DNA of 37,154 bases, from positions 1-37,154 of the forward strand of contig JAISUT010000065.1 of assembly GCA_031271905.1 (NCBI GenBank). Direction: 5' to 3'. The DNA is from Acidobacteriota bacterium. GTDB lineage: Bacteria; Acidobacteriota; UBA6911. Positions 711 to 33,629 of the stretch are shown here, piece by piece (position 1 is the first letter of the stretch; the number at the start of each line of letters is the position of its first letter). The translations under genes and the position numbers were made by a program. The notes below the pieces were generated by a model, which saw nothing but the letters and a program-made list of their open reading frames with translations, had not been told where the DNA came from and ran no database searches.

Positions 711-2636
711 ATGAACATAATAACCATCGAAGAATTGGCGAAGGAGATCGGTTGCGAATGGAGGGCTGTCTGCGATGCAGCGTGGGCGCTTGGGAGGAGG
801 GTGAGATTCGAGCCAACGGATGCTGTTACTGATGGCGATGTCCCCGCCATCTGGACAAAGGTCGTAGGAAAGGGGCTGTTTGGAAAGGAACTGAGGCGAA
901 TAGATGAGCTGAAAAGACAGGAATGGGAACAGAAGTTGCAATGGGAGCAACAGCAAGAATGGCGTTTTGGGTGTCGTTTGATAATATTGGCACCATGTCC
1001 TGATATGTCAATTCAGTCAAGTGCGTTGCCGAAGTCGGATCTGATCGATACTGCGAAATACTGGAGGACAGGAGATGTTCCAAAACAAATTAGCATGATT
1101 CCTCCGTTGCCGGAAAATGAACTAGAAAATGAAGAGTCGTTTTCTGAATTTCTTGCCCGCGCCGCCCGGTGGCAACGACACCCGATCCAAGTAATTACGA
1201 CTCATGCCGGCATTGTATATTTACAAGATATTAAGATAGAAAAATGCGATGTTGGCATTCGATTGTGGTTGGAATCTGTTACTGTGTTTGGACGGAATAA
1301 GCTATGCCGTTTTATCCGTCGTTTAAACCGTGATGAACATGCCTATATTGAAAAAGATGGTTTTTGTCACTATATTCCAGCGTTTTGCGAATGGCAGGAA
1401 GAATGGAAATACGAAGATGAGTGGTATTGGGCGTGGAAGAGCATAAAAAACATATATTCGCACCCCATCGTACCCGTATTTTCATCTTGGTACACGGGAA
1501 ATCTGAAAAATGCCTTCCAAAAACGTGGTTTTCATTTTGACGCATGGAAATTATTTAATGAAACGCGACAAAAACGACAAGGAGGACACACGTTTTTCAT
1601 CTTTCTCCGATATCTATATCATATTATGAAATATCCGGCTTTTGAGATTCTTGTCAAGTCTGGATTCAACGTGGACTGGTCGATAGATAATTTTTCTCAA
1701 TTAAATTCGAATGCGGCAAATCTGCGCGACATTTTCGGACTAAACATTCGGGAAATCAGAGAAATTCGCAAACAGTTGTTTTCGGGTTCCAGTATAGCGA
1801 TATATAAAGAATTCAAAGAAAAGTGGACGCCAATTACATTGGCGATGGCAGAGTTCTTCAGTGGTGAACTCGACCCGAAGCGTGGATGGGTGGAGATGGA
1901 TCCTATTAATTCAAAGAAGATGGATCCTATTAATTCAAAGTGGAAAAACGCCTATGATTTCATGGAATTGTTTGCGGAACTCACCGGATTCGATCCCGGA
2001 AAATTCCTCGCTTGGCTGTATCGGGACAAGATGCATATCCACGACTACCTCGACTACCTCAACGAATGCCTGACATTGGGGCTGGACATCAAGAATCGCG
2101 ATGTGGTTGCGCCAAAACATCCGATGGAAGCGCACCGTCGAACTTCCATGATCGTCGCCCAACAACGGGCGCGGGAACTAGAAGCGCAACGCCGGCAACG
2201 CCTCGTCAGCCAAGACGAGCAGATAGCCAAAGCGATACGGCGAAACATCCCCGCCGTCCTCGTAAATGGCGCGTTCGAGTCGGGGGTGTACCGGGCGACC
2301 GTCGCCCGGGGCAACGCCGACTTGATCGCCGAAAGCATGGCGCTGGGGCATTGCGTCGGCACGGGCGACTATGCGGACGCAATGAGCCGGGGGAGCTCGT
2401 TCATCTTCTTCGTCAGGAGGCGCGAGTCGCCGGATGCGCCTTTCTTCACGATGGAGCTTTCGCCGGACTTCCGCATCCTCCAACTGCGAGGCAGGTTCAA
2501 CTGCGACCCGCCGCTGGATGTGTCGGCGTTCGCGAATGAGTTCACCGCTTGGCTGCGCCGCCAAGAGAAGCCCCGCCGTTGCGAACGTCGCCTGGGCCGC
2601 CCCGTTGGCGATGGCGGTATAAAAAGGGCGGTATAA
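711..2636 (+). CDS. PcfJ-like protein
   Basis: The 641-aa protein ends in the conserved PcfJ-type region: HCVG at residues 547-550, then GTGDYADAM and the hydrophobic strand FIFFVRRRE (about 564-572), then a short segment resembling the family's ME..P...ILQ..G..N pattern. PcfJ is named from an enterococcal conjugative plasmid; its biochemical role is not established. The first ~50 residues (ITIEELAKEIGCEWRAV...) look like the small IF2N-type helical domain; this is by eye only. The middle is Trp/Tyr-rich and unassigned. The start fits an SD-like GCGAGG about 8 nt upstream. Base composition is split: AT-rich to about nt 1960, then GC-rich, so the C-terminal part matches the chromosome and the N-terminal part does not. 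An in-frame 24-bp tandem duplication lies at 1895-1940. The gene stands alone, followed by hairpins. Confidence 0.75.
   Translation: MNIITIEELAKEIGCEWRAVCDAAWALGRRVRFEPTDAVTDGDVPAIWTKVVGKGLFGKELRRIDELKRQEWEQKLQWEQQQEWRFGCRLIILAPCPDMSIQSSALPKSDLIDTAKYWRTGDVPKQISMIPPLPENELENEESFSEFLARAARWQRHPIQVITTHAGIVYLQDIKIEKCDVGIRLWLESVTVFGRNKLCRFIRRLNRDEHAYIEKDGFCHYIPAFCEWQEEWKYEDEWYWAWKSIKNIYSHPIVPVFSSWYTGNLKNAFQKRGFHFDAWKLFNETRQKRQGGHTFFIFLRYLYHIMKYPAFEILVKSGFNVDWSIDNFSQLNSNAANLRDIFGLNIREIREIRKQLFSGSSIAIYKEFKEKWTPITLAMAEFFSGELDPKRGWVEMDPINSKKMDPINSKWKNAYDFMELFAELTGFDPGKFLAWLYRDKMHIHDYLDYLNECLTLGLDIKNRDVVAPKHPMEAHRRTSMIVAQQRARELEAQRRQRLVSQDEQIAKAIRRNIPAVLVNGAFESGVYRATVARGNADLIAESMALGHCVGTGDYADAMSRGSSFIFFVRRRESPDAPFFTMELSPDFRILQLRGRFNCDPPLDVSAFANEFTAWLRRQEKPRRCERRLGRPVGDGGIKRAV
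1895..1940 (+). repeat. 24-bp in-frame tandem duplication inside the PcfJ-like gene
   Basis: The 22-bp word starting GATGGATCC and ending TTCAAAG occurs at 1895-1916 and again at 1919-1940, giving a 24-bp period and two consecutive MDPINSK peptides. The near-identical copies suggest recent slippage. Confidence 0.9.
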
Positions 2637-4619: not shown

Positions 4620-6299
4620 CTACTGGTCTAAGGCCAAGCGGAAGCCAAGGTCTCCGATGCGATGGTCGGGGGTGTCGCCGGCGCGATACGCCACCCGCAC
4701 GTACTCTGCGAGGTGGATCCAGCTCCCGCCCCGGATCACGCGGATCGCGCCCGTCGCAGATCCCGTGGGGTCGGCCGCCGGCGAGACGGAGTAGTAGGAA
4801 GAGTCGTGCCAGTCGGACACCCACTCCCACACGTTCCCGCTCATGTCGTAAAGGCCGAGTTCGTTCGCCGCCAATTTGCCGACTTCGTGTGTCGTCAGGC
4901 TGCTGTTATCACGGTACCACGCCACGTCGTCGATGGTGTCGCTCCCGCTGTACTTGTAGTCGTGGGCTGGGCCGTCCGCGCCTCCGCGCGCCGCGTACTC
5001 CCACTCCGCCTCCGTCGGCAGACGGTAGTTTCTCCCCGTCGCCGCGTTCAGCTTGGCCAAGAAGCCACCTTCTTCCGTTATGTCCTCCCAGCTCACGCAG
5101 TACATCGGGTGGTCGTCGCCGCGCCCATAGGCGCCGCAAACGTCCAGTCGCGCCGCGAGGTCTTCGGCGCTCCAGTCCATCACCTCCCGCCACTGCGCCT
5201 GCGTCACCTCCGTCTCCCCGACGTAGAAGTCCTTCGTCAGCGCCACCTCGTGCTCCGGGGATTCGGCGCTCTCGCAATCGCCCGCTTGCTTGGCCGTGCA
5301 GCCCATCTGGAACGCCCCGCCAGCCACCGGCTTCAACGTTATGTCGAACACCTTGCCGTAGGCGATGGCGATGCCCTTGCTCGCCTGCGGGGTCGCGTCG
5401 TCCTTTACCGTGATTGTCGCGTCACCCGCCGCCGCCGCCGACAATGGCGTCCCGGAGATCACCCCCGCCGCGCTGACGGTCATCCCCGCAGGGAGCCCCG
5501 TCGCCTCGAACGTGTACGGCGGCTTGCCGCCGCCCACCCCGCCCGACACGTCGATGTCTCTGATCTTCACCCCCACCGTCGCCGCCGGGATGTCGTAGCC
5601 TTCGCTGCCGACGAACACCAGCTCTGGCCACGACGACGCCCCGTAGCCCATCTCGATGCTCGCCGTGTCGCCAAGGGCGTCTGTCACCGTCACCGTCGCG
5701 TTGCCCGCAGGCGCATCTGCCGCCGGAGTCCCGGAGATCACCCCGCCGGGGTCGAGCCTCAGCCCGTCAGGGAGCCCCGTCGCCTCGAACGTGTACGGTG
5801 CCTGGCCGCCCCGCACCGCGCCGTACAGGTCGATGGGGTCTATCGCCTGCCCGACCGTCATCGCCGGGATGTCGTAGCCGTCGCCGAAGGTGATGGGCGC
5901 AAGCCCCACCGCCCCGTAGTCGATCATGATGCTCGCCTTGGCGCCCTTGCCGTCGGTCACCGCGACCGTCGCCCGCCCGGCGTCCTGCTTCATCACCGGA
6001 GTCCCGGAGATCACCCCCGCCGCGCTGATGGTTATCCCCGCAGGGAGCCCCGTCGCGCTGAACGTGTACGGCTGCGTCCCGCCGCTCGCCGCGCCCGACA
6101 CGTCGATGGGTGTGATCGCCTCGCCCGCCGTCGTCGCCGGGATGTCGTAGCTCGCGCCGTCGGAGAGCTTCAACGCTTCGCCCGTGTCCTTGGCGCCCCC
6201 ACCCGCGCCCAAAGAACCGCCGCCGCAACCGGCGGCCAGCAGCGGCGACACCGCCAGCAGCGCCACCCAAACGGGGAACATACTCTTTTTGCACCTCAT
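4620..6299 (-). CDS. Lipoprotein with three Ig-like repeats and an FGE/SUMF1-like domain
   Basis: The start at 6299 gives a 559-aa protein with lipoprotein signal MRCKKSMFPVWVALLAVSPL and lipid-attachment Cys25 (LAAGC), preceded by AAGGAG; the open frame extends upstream but the signal peptide fixes the start. Residues about 50-128, 141-219 and 234-314 are three similar modules of the putative Ig (He_PIG) type, each with YDIPA, PYTF.ATGLP.G and GGVISGTP-like motifs. Residues about 320-556 are a formylglycine-generating-enzyme-like domain: GGAFQMGC, ETEVTQAQWREVM, RLPTEAEWEYAARGG, GLYDMSGNVWEWVSDW, VIRGGSWI and GFRLAL. The copper-binding cysteines of true FGE near the end are not apparent (RGGSWIHLAEY), so it is probably not a sulfatase activator but an FGE-fold binding or modifying protein on the cell surface. 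Confidence 0.88.
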   Translation of the reverse strand: MRCKKSMFPVWVALLAVSPLLAAGCGGGSLGAGGGAKDTGEALKLSDGASYDIPATTAGEAITPIDVSGAASGGTQPYTFSATGLPAGITISAAGVISGTPVMKQDAGRATVAVTDGKGAKASIMIDYGAVGLAPITFGDGYDIPAMTVGQAIDPIDLYGAVRGGQAPYTFEATGLPDGLRLDPGGVISGTPAADAPAGNATVTVTDALGDTASIEMGYGASSWPELVFVGSEGYDIPAATVGVKIRDIDVSGGVGGGKPPYTFEATGLPAGMTVSAAGVISGTPLSAAAAGDATITVKDDATPQASKGIAIAYGKVFDITLKPVAGGAFQMGCTAKQAGDCESAESPEHEVALTKDFYVGETEVTQAQWREVMDWSAEDLAARLDVCGAYGRGDDHPMYCVSWEDITEEGGFLAKLNAATGRNYRLPTEAEWEYAARGGADGPAHDYKYSGSDTIDDVAWYRDNSSLTTHEVGKLAANELGLYDMSGNVWEWVSDWHDSSYYSVSPAADPTGSATGAIRVIRGGSWIHLAEYVRVAYRAGDTPDHRIGDLGFRLALDQ

Positions 6300-6362
6300 G
6301 ATGCCTTCTCCTTGGTCGGATTTGTTTGTTTCTCGCGGTCGAACGGTCGAGTTGCCGACTAT

Positions 6363-6378
6363 CAAAAGTGTACTTTTG
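6363..6378. promoter_or_regulatory. Near-palindrome upstream of the lipoprotein gene
   Basis: CAAAAGTGTACTTTTG has 7-bp arms CAAAAGT/ACTTTTG around a 2-bp centre and lies 64-79 bp upstream of the lipoprotein start, a usual place for an operator. No regulator is identified. Confidence 0.35.
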
Positions 6379-6645
6379 GATGGCGCCGGATTCGCCGGGC
6401 CGGACACCCCTGAAAAACCGCCGAAAACATCTGGAAGCGTCCAAATGCTCAAATTCTGCTTCGATATATCGGTCGAATCCCGACAAAACTTCATCAGATC
6501 CTCAAATTTTGCAAAAAGCGCCCACCGTTCGGAACCTTGGCTTGATTCGCCGTTTTCACCTCTGACGCCCCTGACGTTCTGGGCGTTGACTTCGGCAAGG
6601 GGATCGGCAATAACCGTCATCGACGAAACGGTTGGCGGTTCGGAT

Positions 6646-6830
6646 CATCCCCTTCGCGAAATCCGATGGGCTTACCGCAGGGATTTGCGACGAAGAAAAT
6701 CCATTTTTGTCGCGGGAGATGATTTTCGCCGCACCGACGCGAAGGGCGCACAATGATAGTGCGGCGTCTTCCAGATCGGGGAAGTCAGAAGCGAACGCTT
6801 CCCTGATGCGGAATCTTGTGATAAGATCAA
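6646..6830 (-). pseudogene. Remnant of a PIN-domain toxin (C-terminal part)
   Basis: The minus-strand frame reads RIREAFASDFPDLEDAALSL, CALRVGAAKIISRDKNGF and SSSQIPAVSPSDFAKGM. This matches the C-terminal third of PIN-domain (VapC-like) ribonucleases: the D.EDA..... A...GA..I.TRD..DF motif followed by IPV.SP.E. The N-terminal half with the first catalytic Asp is absent; homology stops near 6830, just before the family 2 repeat. There is no normal stop near the expected end and no antitoxin gene beside it. I read it as a decayed toxin-antitoxin locus. Confidence 0.6.
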
Positions 6831-6946: not shown

Positions 6947-6971
6947 AGATGAAATCTCTGGAATTTCATCT
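6947..6971. promoter_or_regulatory. Perfect 9-7-9 inverted repeat before the Hsp70-like gene
   Basis: AGATGAAAT (6947-6955), a 7-nt spacer and ATTTCATCT (6963-6971) form a perfect 9-bp inverted repeat ending 27 bp before the chosen start of the Hsp70-like gene. The geometry is like a repressor operator (CIRCE is 9-9-9, with a different sequence). It could alternatively act as an mRNA hairpin near the ribosome site. Confidence 0.5.
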
Positions 6972-6998
6972 GATGCAGATTGGAGCCTGATTTATATT

Positions 6999-9428
6999 AT
7001 GGGAAATGATCTCGATATCTTTAGTGCAACAGGAACCCAGTTGCAAAAAGCATCTGCACCGTTACGGGTTATCGGCATTGATCTAGGCACAACAAATTCC
7101 ACTGTCGCCGAAATCGTATTGAATGACATTGAAAAAAATATGCCTCCTGCACCGAAATGTATTGAAGTGGAGCAGGAAACCTATTCGGGGTTATATACGC
7201 ACATCCTCACACCCTCTGCAGTTGCCCTGTATGATGCAAAAGAATGGATTGGAGAGGGGGCGAAGCGGCTTTTGGGACGAGTCCCCGAATTAGGCCTCAG
7301 ACTGACGCAGAACTTATTTCTCGAATGCAAAAATGATATTGGCACTCGCCGCACATATCCTAATGCGCCGGAAGGCTATCGTTCTCCTGTGGACATCAGT
7401 TCGAGGATATTGGAGTTTTTAAAAAATGCAGCCATGGCACACGAGTCGATGCCGGTCTCGCGAACCGTGGTCACAGTTCCTGCTTCATTCCAGACGGCAC
7501 AACGCAACGACACTGTCGTAGCGGCGAAAAAGGCGGGGATTGAAATATCGACAGGTGATTTACTTGACGAACCGGTCGCGGCATTCATTGATTATTTTTG
7601 TTCCTATTCCCAGCAATTCAAAGGCGTCTTCGCGTCGCCCAAAAAACTCTTAGTGTTTGATTTCGGAGGCGGCACGTGCGACATCGCTATTTTTCAGTTG
7701 GGTAAATCCAGACGAGGCAACTTCCTAGACATTAGCCCGCTCGCCGTCTCGCGGTATCATCGCCTCGGTGGTGGCGACATAGACCGTGCGATCCTCTACG
7801 ACATCCTGCTGCCCCAGATCATTGAACAAAACGGTCTGGATCCGGCCGATCTCACATTCGAAGATAAAAAGAATTTTATCGAACCTGCATTTATCACTTT
7901 GGCCGAAGCACTGAAAAAAGGATTGTCCAACGAGATCACTCGGCTCCATGGGTTGGGCAGGTATGCCGCGACGGATAAAAACTCGATAGTCAAAAAACAG
8001 CCTGGGGTATATTCCTGCCAATTGGCGACACGGCGCTTGGAATTGAATTCGCCGACGCTTTCTGCCGCGCAGTTTGAAAAAGTCCTAGGCCCCTTTCTAG
8101 ACGAAGACCTGCTCTATGCCAGAGAGAGTGAATATCGCCTGACCTGCTCGATTTTCGCACCGATCCGCGACGCTTTAGATCGAAGCAACCTGACGCCTGG
8201 AGATATCGGTCTTTGCCTTTTGGTCGGTGGAAGCAGCCTGATCCCATCGATAGTTTCAGCGGTTCAGAGTTTCCTTCCGAAATCGAAACAACTGATGTTC
8301 CCTGACCAGGATGCCATTCAGGTCGCGGTGGCGCGCGGGGCAGCCACGCATGCATTGTCGCTCGCACTCTACGGGAAGGGCATCGTTCAACCTGTCACCC
8401 CTGACCGCATATCGATCCGCACAACGGATAGTTCCTACGAACTTATCCCCAAAGGGACGCCGCTCCCATTCCCAGGGAACGGCCGATGGCATAGATCGCA
8501 AGATCTGAGTGTTCCAGAAACTTCCCTGACCATGCCTGTTCCGTTAAGAATCGAAATTCTAGCCGGCGAACGAGAGCAGGAGCGTAGGCTCATGACGAAT
8601 ATTTGGTCTATTGCGCCTCCAGTGAACCGAGGGAGTGCATTGTCGCTGGAATACCATATGGATGAAAACCAGCTTTTGGAATTCAGATTGACATTGGAAG
8701 GAGAGGACGATGCGGATCCATTTGAATTTAAAATCGAAAACCCCCTTTCCAATGTAGTCAACCCCAACGACACCCTTTTGAAGATACAAGAAGCAGAAGA
8801 AGAACTTCGTCGCGGAAAAATTCCACAAGCGCTCCAGAAGGACAAAATCATTGAAATAGCCCAGGACTATTTTAAGCTGGGACAGATCGACAAAGCGATC
8901 TTCTATCTTAGCCAGGCGCTCCGCATGGTCAATCGGCCTGATGCGCACATACTGAATCTTTTGGGCATATACCACGGAGAAAAACGCGACTATCAACGTC
9001 AGGAGAAATTCTATCGGGAAGCTCATCGGGTCGGTGGCATGGGACGCGCGCCTTTGTTTAATTTGGCGCTGTCGCAATATCGGCAATGCCAGTACAAAGC
9101 CGCGCAAGCGACCGTGGCAGAACTTAGGGCCTTCGACCACAGCGGGCCGACGCTAACGTTGGCGGCGCAAATAGAGGAATCCTTGGGGCATCACGACAAA
9201 GTGAAAAAAATTATAGGGCAAGCGCTGGCAGAATACCCACCTCTTCCCGCTATGGAACAATGGGAGCTCGGTTGGTATATGGCCGCCGCAAGATTGGCTG
9301 GAGACAATCAACGTCTTGCCGCCGCGCAGGCCGAACAACAGAAACGCAAAAAGGCAAAACCAAGACACGACCATGGCGAGGACGGCGTGCTTCCCGAAAT
9401 CGCCGGCGCAGTTGTTCGCAGATCATGA
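6999..9428 (+). CDS. Hsp70/DnaK-like ATPase with C-terminal TPR repeats
   Basis: From the ATG at 6999 the protein is 809 aa. The Hsp70 ATPase signatures are complete: phosphate-1 GIDLGTTNSTVAEI (about 26-39), phosphate-2 LLVFDFGGGTCDIAIF (about 217-232) and adenosine motif LLVGGSSLIPSI (about 407-418). Residues about 463-568 resemble a reduced substrate-binding beta domain (LPFPGNG, ILAGERE, a beta-rich stretch). Where DnaK has its helical lid, this protein has TPR-like helix pairs (about 615-775), then a basic Lys/Arg tail. It is therefore a specialised Hsp70, not housekeeping DnaK, and no DnaJ/GrpE gene is near. The frame is open further upstream; 6999 is chosen for position after GGAG (6982-6985) and the inverted repeat, and is uncertain. 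The helicase gene follows after 27 bp. Base composition is more AT-rich than flanking core genes, suggesting transfer. Confidence 0.88.
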   Translation: MGNDLDIFSATGTQLQKASAPLRVIGIDLGTTNSTVAEIVLNDIEKNMPPAPKCIEVEQETYSGLYTHILTPSAVALYDAKEWIGEGAKRLLGRVPELGLRLTQNLFLECKNDIGTRRTYPNAPEGYRSPVDISSRILEFLKNAAMAHESMPVSRTVVTVPASFQTAQRNDTVVAAKKAGIEISTGDLLDEPVAAFIDYFCSYSQQFKGVFASPKKLLVFDFGGGTCDIAIFQLGKSRRGNFLDISPLAVSRYHRLGGGDIDRAILYDILLPQIIEQNGLDPADLTFEDKKNFIEPAFITLAEALKKGLSNEITRLHGLGRYAATDKNSIVKKQPGVYSCQLATRRLELNSPTLSAAQFEKVLGPFLDEDLLYARESEYRLTCSIFAPIRDALDRSNLTPGDIGLCLLVGGSSLIPSIVSAVQSFLPKSKQLMFPDQDAIQVAVARGAATHALSLALYGKGIVQPVTPDRISIRTTDSSYELIPKGTPLPFPGNGRWHRSQDLSVPETSLTMPVPLRIEILAGEREQERRLMTNIWSIAPPVNRGSALSLEYHMDENQLLEFRLTLEGEDDADPFEFKIENPLSNVVNPNDTLLKIQEAEEELRRGKIPQALQKDKIIEIAQDYFKLGQIDKAIFYLSQALRMVNRPDAHILNLLGIYHGEKRDYQRQEKFYREAHRVGGMGRAPLFNLALSQYRQCQYKAAQATVAELRAFDHSGPTLTLAAQIEESLGHHDKVKKIIGQALAEYPPLPAMEQWELGWYMAAARLAGDNQRLAAAQAEQQKRKKAKPRHDHGEDGVLPEIAGAVVRRS

Positions 9429-9455
9429 TTATTCGATGGAAGCGATAGGTTAGAT

Positions 9456-10700
9456 ATGAGCTGGCTGATTCCGTATTCCGATCTCACTCCAGACCAACAA
9501 CGTGCCGTACAATTAAGACCTGACGAAAACCGCGCCATCATCGGAGGGCCGGGTTCCGGGAAAACGCAGATACTGCTGCATCGTGCGCGCCACCTGTGCG
9601 ATTTGTTGAAAACTCCATCCCCGCGATTCCGCATCTTCGTCTATACCAATGCATTAAAGGATTACATCAAAACCGCACTGAAAGAATTGGATTTGCCGGA
9701 AGACAACGTAATCACTTTTGACCATTGGTGTCGTCTTTATTATCAAAAAAACATCAATTCCAAGCTCCCTTGGGACGCTCACGCCAAAAAGCCTGATTTC
9801 GCCGCCATACGTCAGGCGGTGACGAAGCATGCGGGAAGTGGCCAGAAGGCATTCGATTTTGTGCTTGTGGACGAAGGGCAGGATTTGCCCGAGTATGTCT
9901 TTTCCCTTCTCACGAAAATCAGTCGGCATATCACTGTCTGCCTGGACAACAAACAGCAGATTTATGACACTGGGGCTACAGAAGCTTGCATATTTCGCGT
10001 ATTGGGTATTCGGCGGCAAAATGTCAATTTGATTGACGCATTTCGCGTTTGTCCATACCTTGTCGAAGTGGCATCCCAATTCATCGCCAATCCTAGTGAG
10101 CGAACTGCTTTCCGCAAACAGACTCGACAACCGCAAATCGAAAGAGAAACACCACTCATATACCTTGCCCATGATTTTGATGATGAAAAAGCAATGTTGC
10201 AGCAAATAGTGCGCGAGCGATTGCTGAAGAATGAGCGTATCGCCATTCTCTTTCCGGAGAAAAGACAAGTCTTCGGTTTCGCCAAAGGCTTGCATGAAGT
10301 TGGCATTGAAGTCGAGATCCCGCCGCAACAAACCGGAACGCCTCCTTTCGCGACATATGATTTCACATCGCATCGGCCAAAGTTGATGACTTTGCACAGC
10401 GCAAAGGGGCTGACTTTCGACACAATATTCCTACCCCGGCTCATTGCCAATGCGTTTCCGCGTCGCCGTCCGGATGAGGTCGAGCATTTGCTGTTTGTCG
10501 CTATAACCCGTGCGACAAGATGGTGCTACTTCAGTGCCACTGGCGATAATCCATTGGCGGAGTTGCAGGAAAAGTTGCTGCCGCTCGAATCATCGCGCCA
10601 GATCGCCGTGCGTCGCTATGGAGCTCCGGAAAAAACGAGAATTGTTGCGCCACCGCCGGTTGCCCCAGAACCAAATACGAACATACCGACATGGTTGTGA
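9456..10700 (+). CDS. Short UvrD-like superfamily 1 helicase
   Basis: The 414-aa protein has the key SF1A motifs: Q-motif-like LTPDQQRAV (10-18), Walker A GGPGSGKT (30-37), motif Ia FVYTNALKDYI, Walker B VDEGQDLP (138-145), motif III-like CLDNKQQIYD (162-171), motif IV/V region KLMTLHSAKGLTFDTIFLPR (309-328) and motif VI LLFVAITRATRWCYF (345-359). It is much shorter than UvrD/Rep/PcrA (about 670-720 aa), lacking most of the 1B and 2B subdomains, and so resembles the small stand-alone UvrD-like helicases of mobile and defence loci. It starts 27 bp after the Hsp70-like gene with AGG about 8 nt upstream, so the two form an operon. The protein ends in a Pro-rich tail. It shares the AT-richer composition of its partner. 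Confidence 0.88.
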   Translation: MSWLIPYSDLTPDQQRAVQLRPDENRAIIGGPGSGKTQILLHRARHLCDLLKTPSPRFRIFVYTNALKDYIKTALKELDLPEDNVITFDHWCRLYYQKNINSKLPWDAHAKKPDFAAIRQAVTKHAGSGQKAFDFVLVDEGQDLPEYVFSLLTKISRHITVCLDNKQQIYDTGATEACIFRVLGIRRQNVNLIDAFRVCPYLVEVASQFIANPSERTAFRKQTRQPQIERETPLIYLAHDFDDEKAMLQQIVRERLLKNERIAILFPEKRQVFGFAKGLHEVGIEVEIPPQQTGTPPFATYDFTSHRPKLMTLHSAKGLTFDTIFLPRLIANAFPRRRPDEVEHLLFVAITRATRWCYFSATGDNPLAELQEKLLPLESSRQIAVRRYGAPEKTRIVAPPPVAPEPNTNIPTWL

Positions 10701-33239: not shown

Positions 33240-33629
33240 CTACCATACGCATGGAACGTCGTATTCGCGAATAGACTTGTCGGTCGTGACAATCGGTATT
33301 CCCTCGGACTTCGCCGTCGCCACGAGCAGTCTGTCAAAAGGGTCGCGGTGTACAGGCGGCAGACCGGGCAGATTCTCTAAATGTGATTGAGCGATGGGAA
33401 GCACGATCCAGCCATTCGCGTCAATCATGGCGCGGAAGCTCGTCACGCCGCCCTCGAAACGGAGTTTTCCGAGGTCGTGTTTTATCGTGAACTCCCAAAG
33501 GGACGCGACGCTTATCACTATGCGGTTATCGGAATCTCTGTTCTCTATCACGGCCGCCGCCTTTTCGGACAACTGTTCCGAATCCTCAAGAAACCAGAGA
33601 ACCGTATGGGTGTCGAGCAGGTATCTCAT
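33240..33629 (-). CDS. PIN-domain toxin (VapC-like ribonuclease)
   Basis: The 129-aa protein has the PIN acidic set: Asp6 in YLLDTHTVLWFL, Glu46 in ASLWEF, and Asp96/Asp99 in HRDPFDRLLVATA, followed by IVTTDKSI (Asp117). These residues bind Mg2+ or Mn2+ and cut RNA. The LLDTHTVLW start and HRDPFDR motif are those of a common VapC subgroup. The gene overlaps the antitoxin stop (ATGA), so the toxin is translationally coupled to its antidote. It lies between the two inverted family 2 repeats. Confidence 0.92.
   Translation of the reverse strand: MRYLLDTHTVLWFLEDSEQLSEKAAAVIENRDSDNRIVISVASLWEFTIKHDLGKLRFEGGVTSFRAMIDANGWIVLPIAQSHLENLPGLPPVHRDPFDRLLVATAKSEGIPIVTTDKSIREYDVPCVW

Follow-up and report, generated by a model that had tools for sequence, protein, structure and literature searches.

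An Hsp70-TPR protein and a compact UvrD-type helicase form a widespread gene pair that may act in bacterial defence

CoCoNuTs are systems in which an Hsp70-like protein (CnuD/CnuCD) and a superfamily 1 (SF1) helicase (CnuH) are combined on a McrB/McrC base, and they are predicted to target RNA (PMC11090510). Their repeats are of the HEAT type, their helicase is UPF1-like, and their Hsp70s are considered poor at ATP hydrolysis (PMC11090510). In type II ARMADA, the GajB-like UvrD helicase ArmD is essential for defence (PMC12458937). A survey of conflict systems mentions HSP70 with GTPase systems, and not with the pair considered here (Kaur 2020, PMC7159879). We analysed a 37,154-nt contig of an Acidobacteriota bacterium (JAISUT010000065.1; its full length is called the window below). 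In the window, a gene for a DnaK-type protein with tetratricopeptide repeats (Hsp70-TPR) is followed after 27 bp by a gene for a compact UvrD-type helicase. Such pairs are found again and again across many phyla, yet neither the defence library nor the literature searched contained a helicase system of this build with an Hsp70 switch. No publication describing an Hsp70-TPR and UvrD pair was found, most subscription journals and preprints lying outside the search. Judging from sequence and genomic context, the pair is probably a horizontally mobile two-gene module directed against phages or other mobile elements.

The locus resembles type II and III CoCoNuTs, with which the family shares an Hsp70-like protein with nucleotide-binding and substrate-binding domains (NBD and SBD) and helical repeats beside an SF1 helicase, HEPN RNases and restriction neighbours. 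It differs from them in having TPRs, intact Hsp70 phosphate motifs and a helicase that is UvrD-like rather than UPF1-like (structural match Z 36 to UvrD and about 21 to Upf1). Homologues of the McrB GTPase and McrC are not beside the window pair, which is flanked by an FGE lipoprotein gene and parE; DnaJ and GrpE partners are not adjacent either, as was said of the locus from the start. Gabija also contains a compact UvrD-type helicase, GajB. Against PADLOC, the window helicase matches the GajB models at E 4e-20 and, slightly better and near full length, the NERD+UvrD candidate C3a187 (E 1.9e-22). However, Gabija has no Hsp70 partner, and the OLD nuclease GajA is not beside the window helicase. 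The type II ARMADA defence operon combines a UvrD-family helicase with a PglX-like methyltransferase and a helicase of the SNF2 type, and similar genes flank many of the pairs; ArmD differs in its RelE-like domain and in working with the YprA helicase, neither of which the window has. In DISARM-like loci (Deinococcus P4, Streptomyces p1) the same small helicase family stands directly after DrmB, but the upstream partner is DrmA-DrmB and not Hsp70, and the helicases are about 22–23% identical to that of the window. DrmA-DrmB, the YprA helicase and a methyltransferase are all absent beside the window pair, DrmB lying beside sister helicases only. No support was found for equating the pair with the named system "Hypnos". 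The pair would be a helicase-centred defence of a known sort with an unusual Hsp70-type switch.

The genome scan, seeded with the Hsp70 alignment only, covered one genome per species in 84,980 species and returned 80 loci. Pairing could be tested in the 67 loci where at least 1 kb downstream of the Hsp70 was available. It turned out that the same small helicase lies immediately downstream on the same strand in 58 of these 67 Hsp70 relatives, and in 61 of 70 when the window and two plasmid loci from other searches are added. Pairing of Hsp70 and helicase is thus far beyond chance, and the initial annotation, which had treated the two genes as one system, was right on this point. The junctions are tight, with 4-bp overlaps in 18 of the 64 measured. 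On the helicase side, all six other Acidobacteriota genomes with a high-scoring family member (E < 1e-90) have the Hsp70 directly upstream; the weaker-scoring members in this phylum have a kinase or DrmA-DrmB there. The two genes are inherited together: the pairwise identities of Hsp70 and helicase co-vary with a Mantel r of 0.97 for the whole set and of 0.88 within the clade of the window (0 of 5000 permutations).

Genes near the homologues were counted within about 8 kb of the clade A loci. Those that recur are PLD+SNF2 helicases (in 10 loci; PADLOC C3a139/DrmD/BrxHII-like), Eco57I-type methyltransferases (9; type IIG/DrmMI/PglX-like), ISP-type methyltransferases (4), YhcG (3), Bro-N (3) and DUF3800 (3). 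A methyltransferase or PLD-SNF2 gene is found in 13 of the 27 larger-flank loci, those with 8 kb or more of flank. At locus L058, the gene of the Hachiman helicase HamB adjoins the pair (E-value 0). To obtain a baseline, about 90 Eco57I genes were counted in 149 Acidobacteriota genomes of about 4 Mb each, which gives about 0.15 per Mb. At this density about 0.06 are expected in the 0.41 Mb of flank, which contained 9, an excess of roughly 100-fold that is approximate and relies on a one-phylum baseline. Restriction and defence genes are therefore enriched beside the pair family.

The pair is also mobile. The Hsp70 family is patchy across at least 14 phyla, and its tree is mixed by phylum (34 label changes, where 16 would be the minimum). 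The helicase family (E < 1e-30) occurs in 15 of 396 Acidobacteriota genomes, kinase- and DrmB-type members included, and relatives of the pair were found on plasmids. An Hsp70-TPR with 47% identity lies in a 6.9-kb prophage-like IMG/VR contig, where its neighbours, read by eye, are a thermonuclease-like gene and a repressor gene of the phage type; the contig ends before any helicase could appear. In a search of a phage collection, the matches listed were all partial and of the ordinary DnaK-like kind. In the window, the GC content is 0.51 for the Hsp70 gene and 0.50 for the helicase gene against 0.67 for the surrounding host chromosome, in line with the AT-richness first noticed. At the parE locus of six congeners, homology to the window ends at the start of parE (11201). 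The pair and the FGE gene are absent upstream of parE in these six, a statement for this site only, as some of the contigs end soon after it; a protein search of the congener genomes gave no close helicase relative elsewhere in them. The pair is thus not confined to a fixed core locus. The mobile context first proposed holds at the level of the family, and the signs of it in the window itself, a decayed PIN toxin gene (Table 1) and repeat junctions, are weak. A single inverted repeat pair was found, after the helicase gene; at 28 nt it is imperfect (75% alike) and single-copy in the genome, and we rejected it as an insertion junction. Scans for promoters and terminators stayed at chance level.

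The Hsp70 gene is real and intact, with its start slightly displaced from the 6947 first given. The maximal open reading frame opens at GTG 6858, and the best start is ATG 6999, with GGAG about 13 nt upstream. The protein matches Pfam HSP70 (PF00012) at E 2.8e-30. It keeps the phosphate-1 (DLGTTNS), phosphate-2 (DFGGGTCD) and adenosine (LVGGSS) motifs, DEPVAAF and a lysine like K70 of DnaK, and the nucleotide motifs are near-invariant across an alignment of 39 sequences. The AlphaFold2 (AF2) model, built from the family alignment, has a mean confidence (pLDDT) of 87.6. In this model, the NBD (residues 20–459) is followed by the strands of SBD-beta (462–578) and by a helical superhelix of 11 confident helices (590–784). 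VIA-align matches the model to DnaK structures at Z 33–35, best Z 35 over 466 residues, with 26–30% identity over the aligned structure; these alignments reach residue 580. The protein therefore shares with DnaK/Hsp70 chaperones an actin-like NBD, the motifs and the SBD-beta fold, but lacks the helical SBD-alpha lid and has no DnaJ or GrpE alongside. In the family profile the DnaK match ends where the lid would begin, and residues 604–711 match engineered TPR proteins; relatives also have TPR matches in Pfam. Because the model shows a superhelix and the profile matches TPR proteins in the same place, the lid is replaced by TPRs, as the initial annotation had it. We also looked by eye for a Hop-like carboxylate clamp in the TPRs. 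Two Asn positions fit and the clamp Lys/Arg do not, and we do not claim one.

The helicase begins at an ATG and matches UvrD_C (E 1.5e-17) and UvrD-helicase (E 2.4e-13) in Pfam. SF1 motifs I (GGPGSGKT), II (DEGQD), III, V (HSAKGLTFD) and VI (VAITRA) are all there, and they hardly vary among the relatives. The AF2 model, again from the family alignment, has a pLDDT of 89.3. It aligns to UvrD over 377 of about 650 residues at 2.9 A, and the alignment skips the 2B domain of UvrD (3lfu 378–551). Thus, the window helicase shares the SF1A core and all motifs with UvrD, PcrA and Rep, and differs from them in the missing 2B, a reduced 1B and a disordered tail; the first description, of a helicase with all key motifs and few accessory subdomains, stands. 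Structural likeness is highest to UvrD/PcrA (Z 27–36), and the fold is also similar to Schlafen helicase domains (Z 25.7). The loss of 2B suggests that the helicase depends on a partner.

Residues of about 388–414 have low pLDDT and are probably disordered. In the family, the Hsp70-paired helicases finish in a short conserved acidic-hydrophobic peptide, such as DDLLDLL, DDLDFL, DDDFDF or DDIF. A terminal F or L is found in 55 of 62 of these helicases against 12% of 418 neighbour genes. F or L together with a net acidic end is found in 45 of 62 against 11 of 418 (Fisher p ~1e-38, a significance inflated by relatedness). The motif is common to clades that are about 25% identical, and the linker preceding it is not conserved. 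Only 1 of 8 helicases paired with a kinase or DrmB has it. The tail resembles the C-terminal tip of SSB and is a candidate for the peptide that docks to the TPR or SBD-beta of the Hsp70.

The same helicase family has other partners. At 20–25% identity, it follows a Ser/Thr kinase in Cupriavidus, Rhizobium and three Acidobacteriota, including the window congener G013, and it follows DrmA-DrmB in Deinococcus, Streptomyces and genome G391. In G013, which is of the same genus (contig C382, locus L130, 1208–5246), a Ser/Thr kinase gene, a small UvrD helicase gene and a 500-aa gene form the kinase version of the module. In L018 (2859–10830), L021 (1023–7080) and L131 (7536–15758), the small helicase directly follows DrmA-DrmB, as an additional helicase in a DISARM-like arrangement. 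At L028, a NERD-fused version of the helicase follows the pair.

Since one helicase family pairs with a kinase or DrmA-DrmB and carries the tail when it pairs with Hsp70, the proposed split into a sensor (Hsp70) and an effector (helicase) is strengthened. We infer the following scheme, including the direct contact of the two proteins, the trigger, the substrate and the polarity. Hsp70-TPR would be an ATP-switched sensor and holder, and the 2B-less helicase would be an effector acting on nucleic acids. The TPR and/or SBD-beta would dock the acidic-hydrophobic tail and hold the helicase in check. The phage cue may be a hydrophobic or SSB-like tail that is exposed, or an abnormal complex of protein and nucleic acid; it would bind Hsp70 and cause ATP hydrolysis and release of the helicase. 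The freed helicase would load on phage replication intermediates and block them. In the sister systems, the Ser/Thr kinase or DrmA-DrmB would occupy the slot of Hsp70. A more specific version, which would make the pair a new class of immune system, is rather unlikely: here the Hsp70 ATPase cycle would be an infection switch in which Hsp70-TPR holds the helicase by its SSB-like tail until phage SSB tails or other phage proteins displace it, so that the release of a chaperone client activates the helicase, and the helicase would be a general effector for Hsp70, kinase and DrmA-DrmB. If the pair is defensive, evolution has made an immune sensor out of a chaperone ATP cycle, and a single family of small helicases supplies an exchangeable effector to three kinds of module.

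Phage defence is well supported by the context of the family; DNA-damage control, the other function first suggested, is less supported. Several observations weigh against defence. No methyltransferase or PLD-SNF2 gene is present in 14 of the 27 larger-flank loci, and the window pair stands alone between its two flanking genes with no defence gene adjacent, in a family that clusters with such genes. The pair contains no nuclease. The Hsp70 is not covered by any model of PADLOC 2.0, and its function therefore has no backing from a library. The tail of the window helicase, NIPTWL, is hydrophobic at its end but not acidic. The helicase is missing in a derived sub-clade (L040, L041, L043, L045 and L066) and in a distant clade (L070, L071 and L080), which means that the Hsp70 can work without it; these two groups account for most of the unpaired loci. 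At L040 (10391–10957) and L041 (4599–5135), an HD-domain gene lies downstream of Hsp70-TPR in place of the helicase.

It is possible, although we hold it rather unlikely, that the pair is a non-autonomous accessory of restriction systems with PLD-SNF2 and PglX/DrmMI/type IIG-like genes, the window copy being an orphan remnant or satellite. The pair indeed forms a co-directional run with PLD-SNF2 and/or methyltransferase genes in L022, L029, L039, L054, L055, L060, L124 and others. However, the 14 loci named above and the window have the pair without such genes, both window genes are intact with conserved motifs, and clade B pairs carry an unrelated third gene. The third gene of clade B has no Pfam match. 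Third genes of about 590–610 aa that follow the helicase were noted at L082, L090, L093, L095, L096, L100 and L016. The third-gene families are c5, in Bacteroidota-type systems, and c3 and c11 in others; they are conserved and had no Pfam or PADLOC match where tested. According to hhalign, the clade B third genes c3, c11 and that of L020 are mutually related, and show no relationship to c5 or to what follows the kinase and DrmB helicases.

Some Hsp70-TPRs have an N-terminal Swt1-type HEPN domain (HEPN_Swt1 E 1.1e-14 and 5e-12) with the RNxxxH motif. Such fusions of a HEPN RNase to Hsp70-TPR lie at L098 (4921–7956), L085 (663–3581) and L020 (3118–5997). Together with the Hsp70 and SF1 helicase of the CoCoNuTs, predicted to target RNA (PMC11090510), and the likeness of the helicase to Schlafen domains, they would fit an RNA-targeting defence, in which the helicase would translocate along RNA and the system, as in CoCoNuTs, would be aimed at ribosomes or at RNA that is aberrant or of phage origin. 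We consider this unlikely, as the helicase is closest in sequence and fold to the DNA helicases UvrD and PcrA, most neighbours are DNA-acting genes, and the window clade has no HEPN. That the pair is a transferred housekeeping or stress device not directed at phages, in which a specialised chaperone would remodel a repair helicase or load it for DNA-damage control, is quite improbable: DnaK and UvrD/PcrA are indeed the housekeeping relatives of the two domains, but the distribution is patchy, readable congeners lack the pair at the window site, restriction genes are strongly enriched nearby, HEPN RNases are fused to some of the Hsp70s, and the host genome already encodes two ordinary DnaKs elsewhere.

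Table 1. Coordinates of the gene pair, its domains and motifs, and a neighbouring gene remnant in the window
Feature	Position	Strand	Basis
Possible remnant of a PIN-domain toxin gene (C-terminal 40 residues); neighbour, outside the system	6709..6828	-	PIN_3 E 0.016
Hsp70-TPR protein, 809 aa (NBD + SBD-beta + TPR)	6999..9428	+	Open reading frame, Pfam, AF2 model, profile, motifs
Hsp70 NBD with intact phosphate, adenosine and catalytic motifs	7059..8378	+	AF2 model, VIA-align to DnaK, invariant columns
SBD-beta	8382..8741	+	Model strands, DnaK alignments
TPR superhelix in place of the SBD-alpha lid	8769..9353	+	Model helices, profile match, TPR Pfam matches of relatives
Compact UvrD-type SF1 helicase without 2B, 414 aa	9456..10700	+	Open reading frame, Pfam, AF2 model, UvrD alignments
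Helicase Walker A, GGPGSGKT	9543..9566	+	Motif; G and K invariant in the alignment
Helicase Walker B / motif II, DEGQD	9870..9884	+	Motif; alignment
Helicase motifs V (HSAKGLTFD) to VI (VAITRA)	10395..10514	+	Motif; alignment
Probably disordered linker and C-terminal tail (window NIPTWL; family consensus acidic + F/L-COOH)	10617..10697	+	Low pLDDT, tail statistics

The lipoprotein-like gene upstream of the pair (4620–6620, minus strand) has three He_PIG Ig repeats, visible as 248-nt DNA repeats that are 68–75% alike, and a C-terminal FGE-sulfatase domain. Farther upstream, a PcfJ-like protein gene (711–2636, plus strand; PF14284 E 1.1e-23) lies in a low-GC stretch (39–55%), inside which a perfect 23-bp tandem duplication is found at 1894–1940. 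This stretch is probably another acquired segment. A second lower-GC patch (33.0–34.2 kb) contains an intact PIN-domain gene (33240–33629, minus strand; E 2.4e-16), likely a VapC-type toxin.

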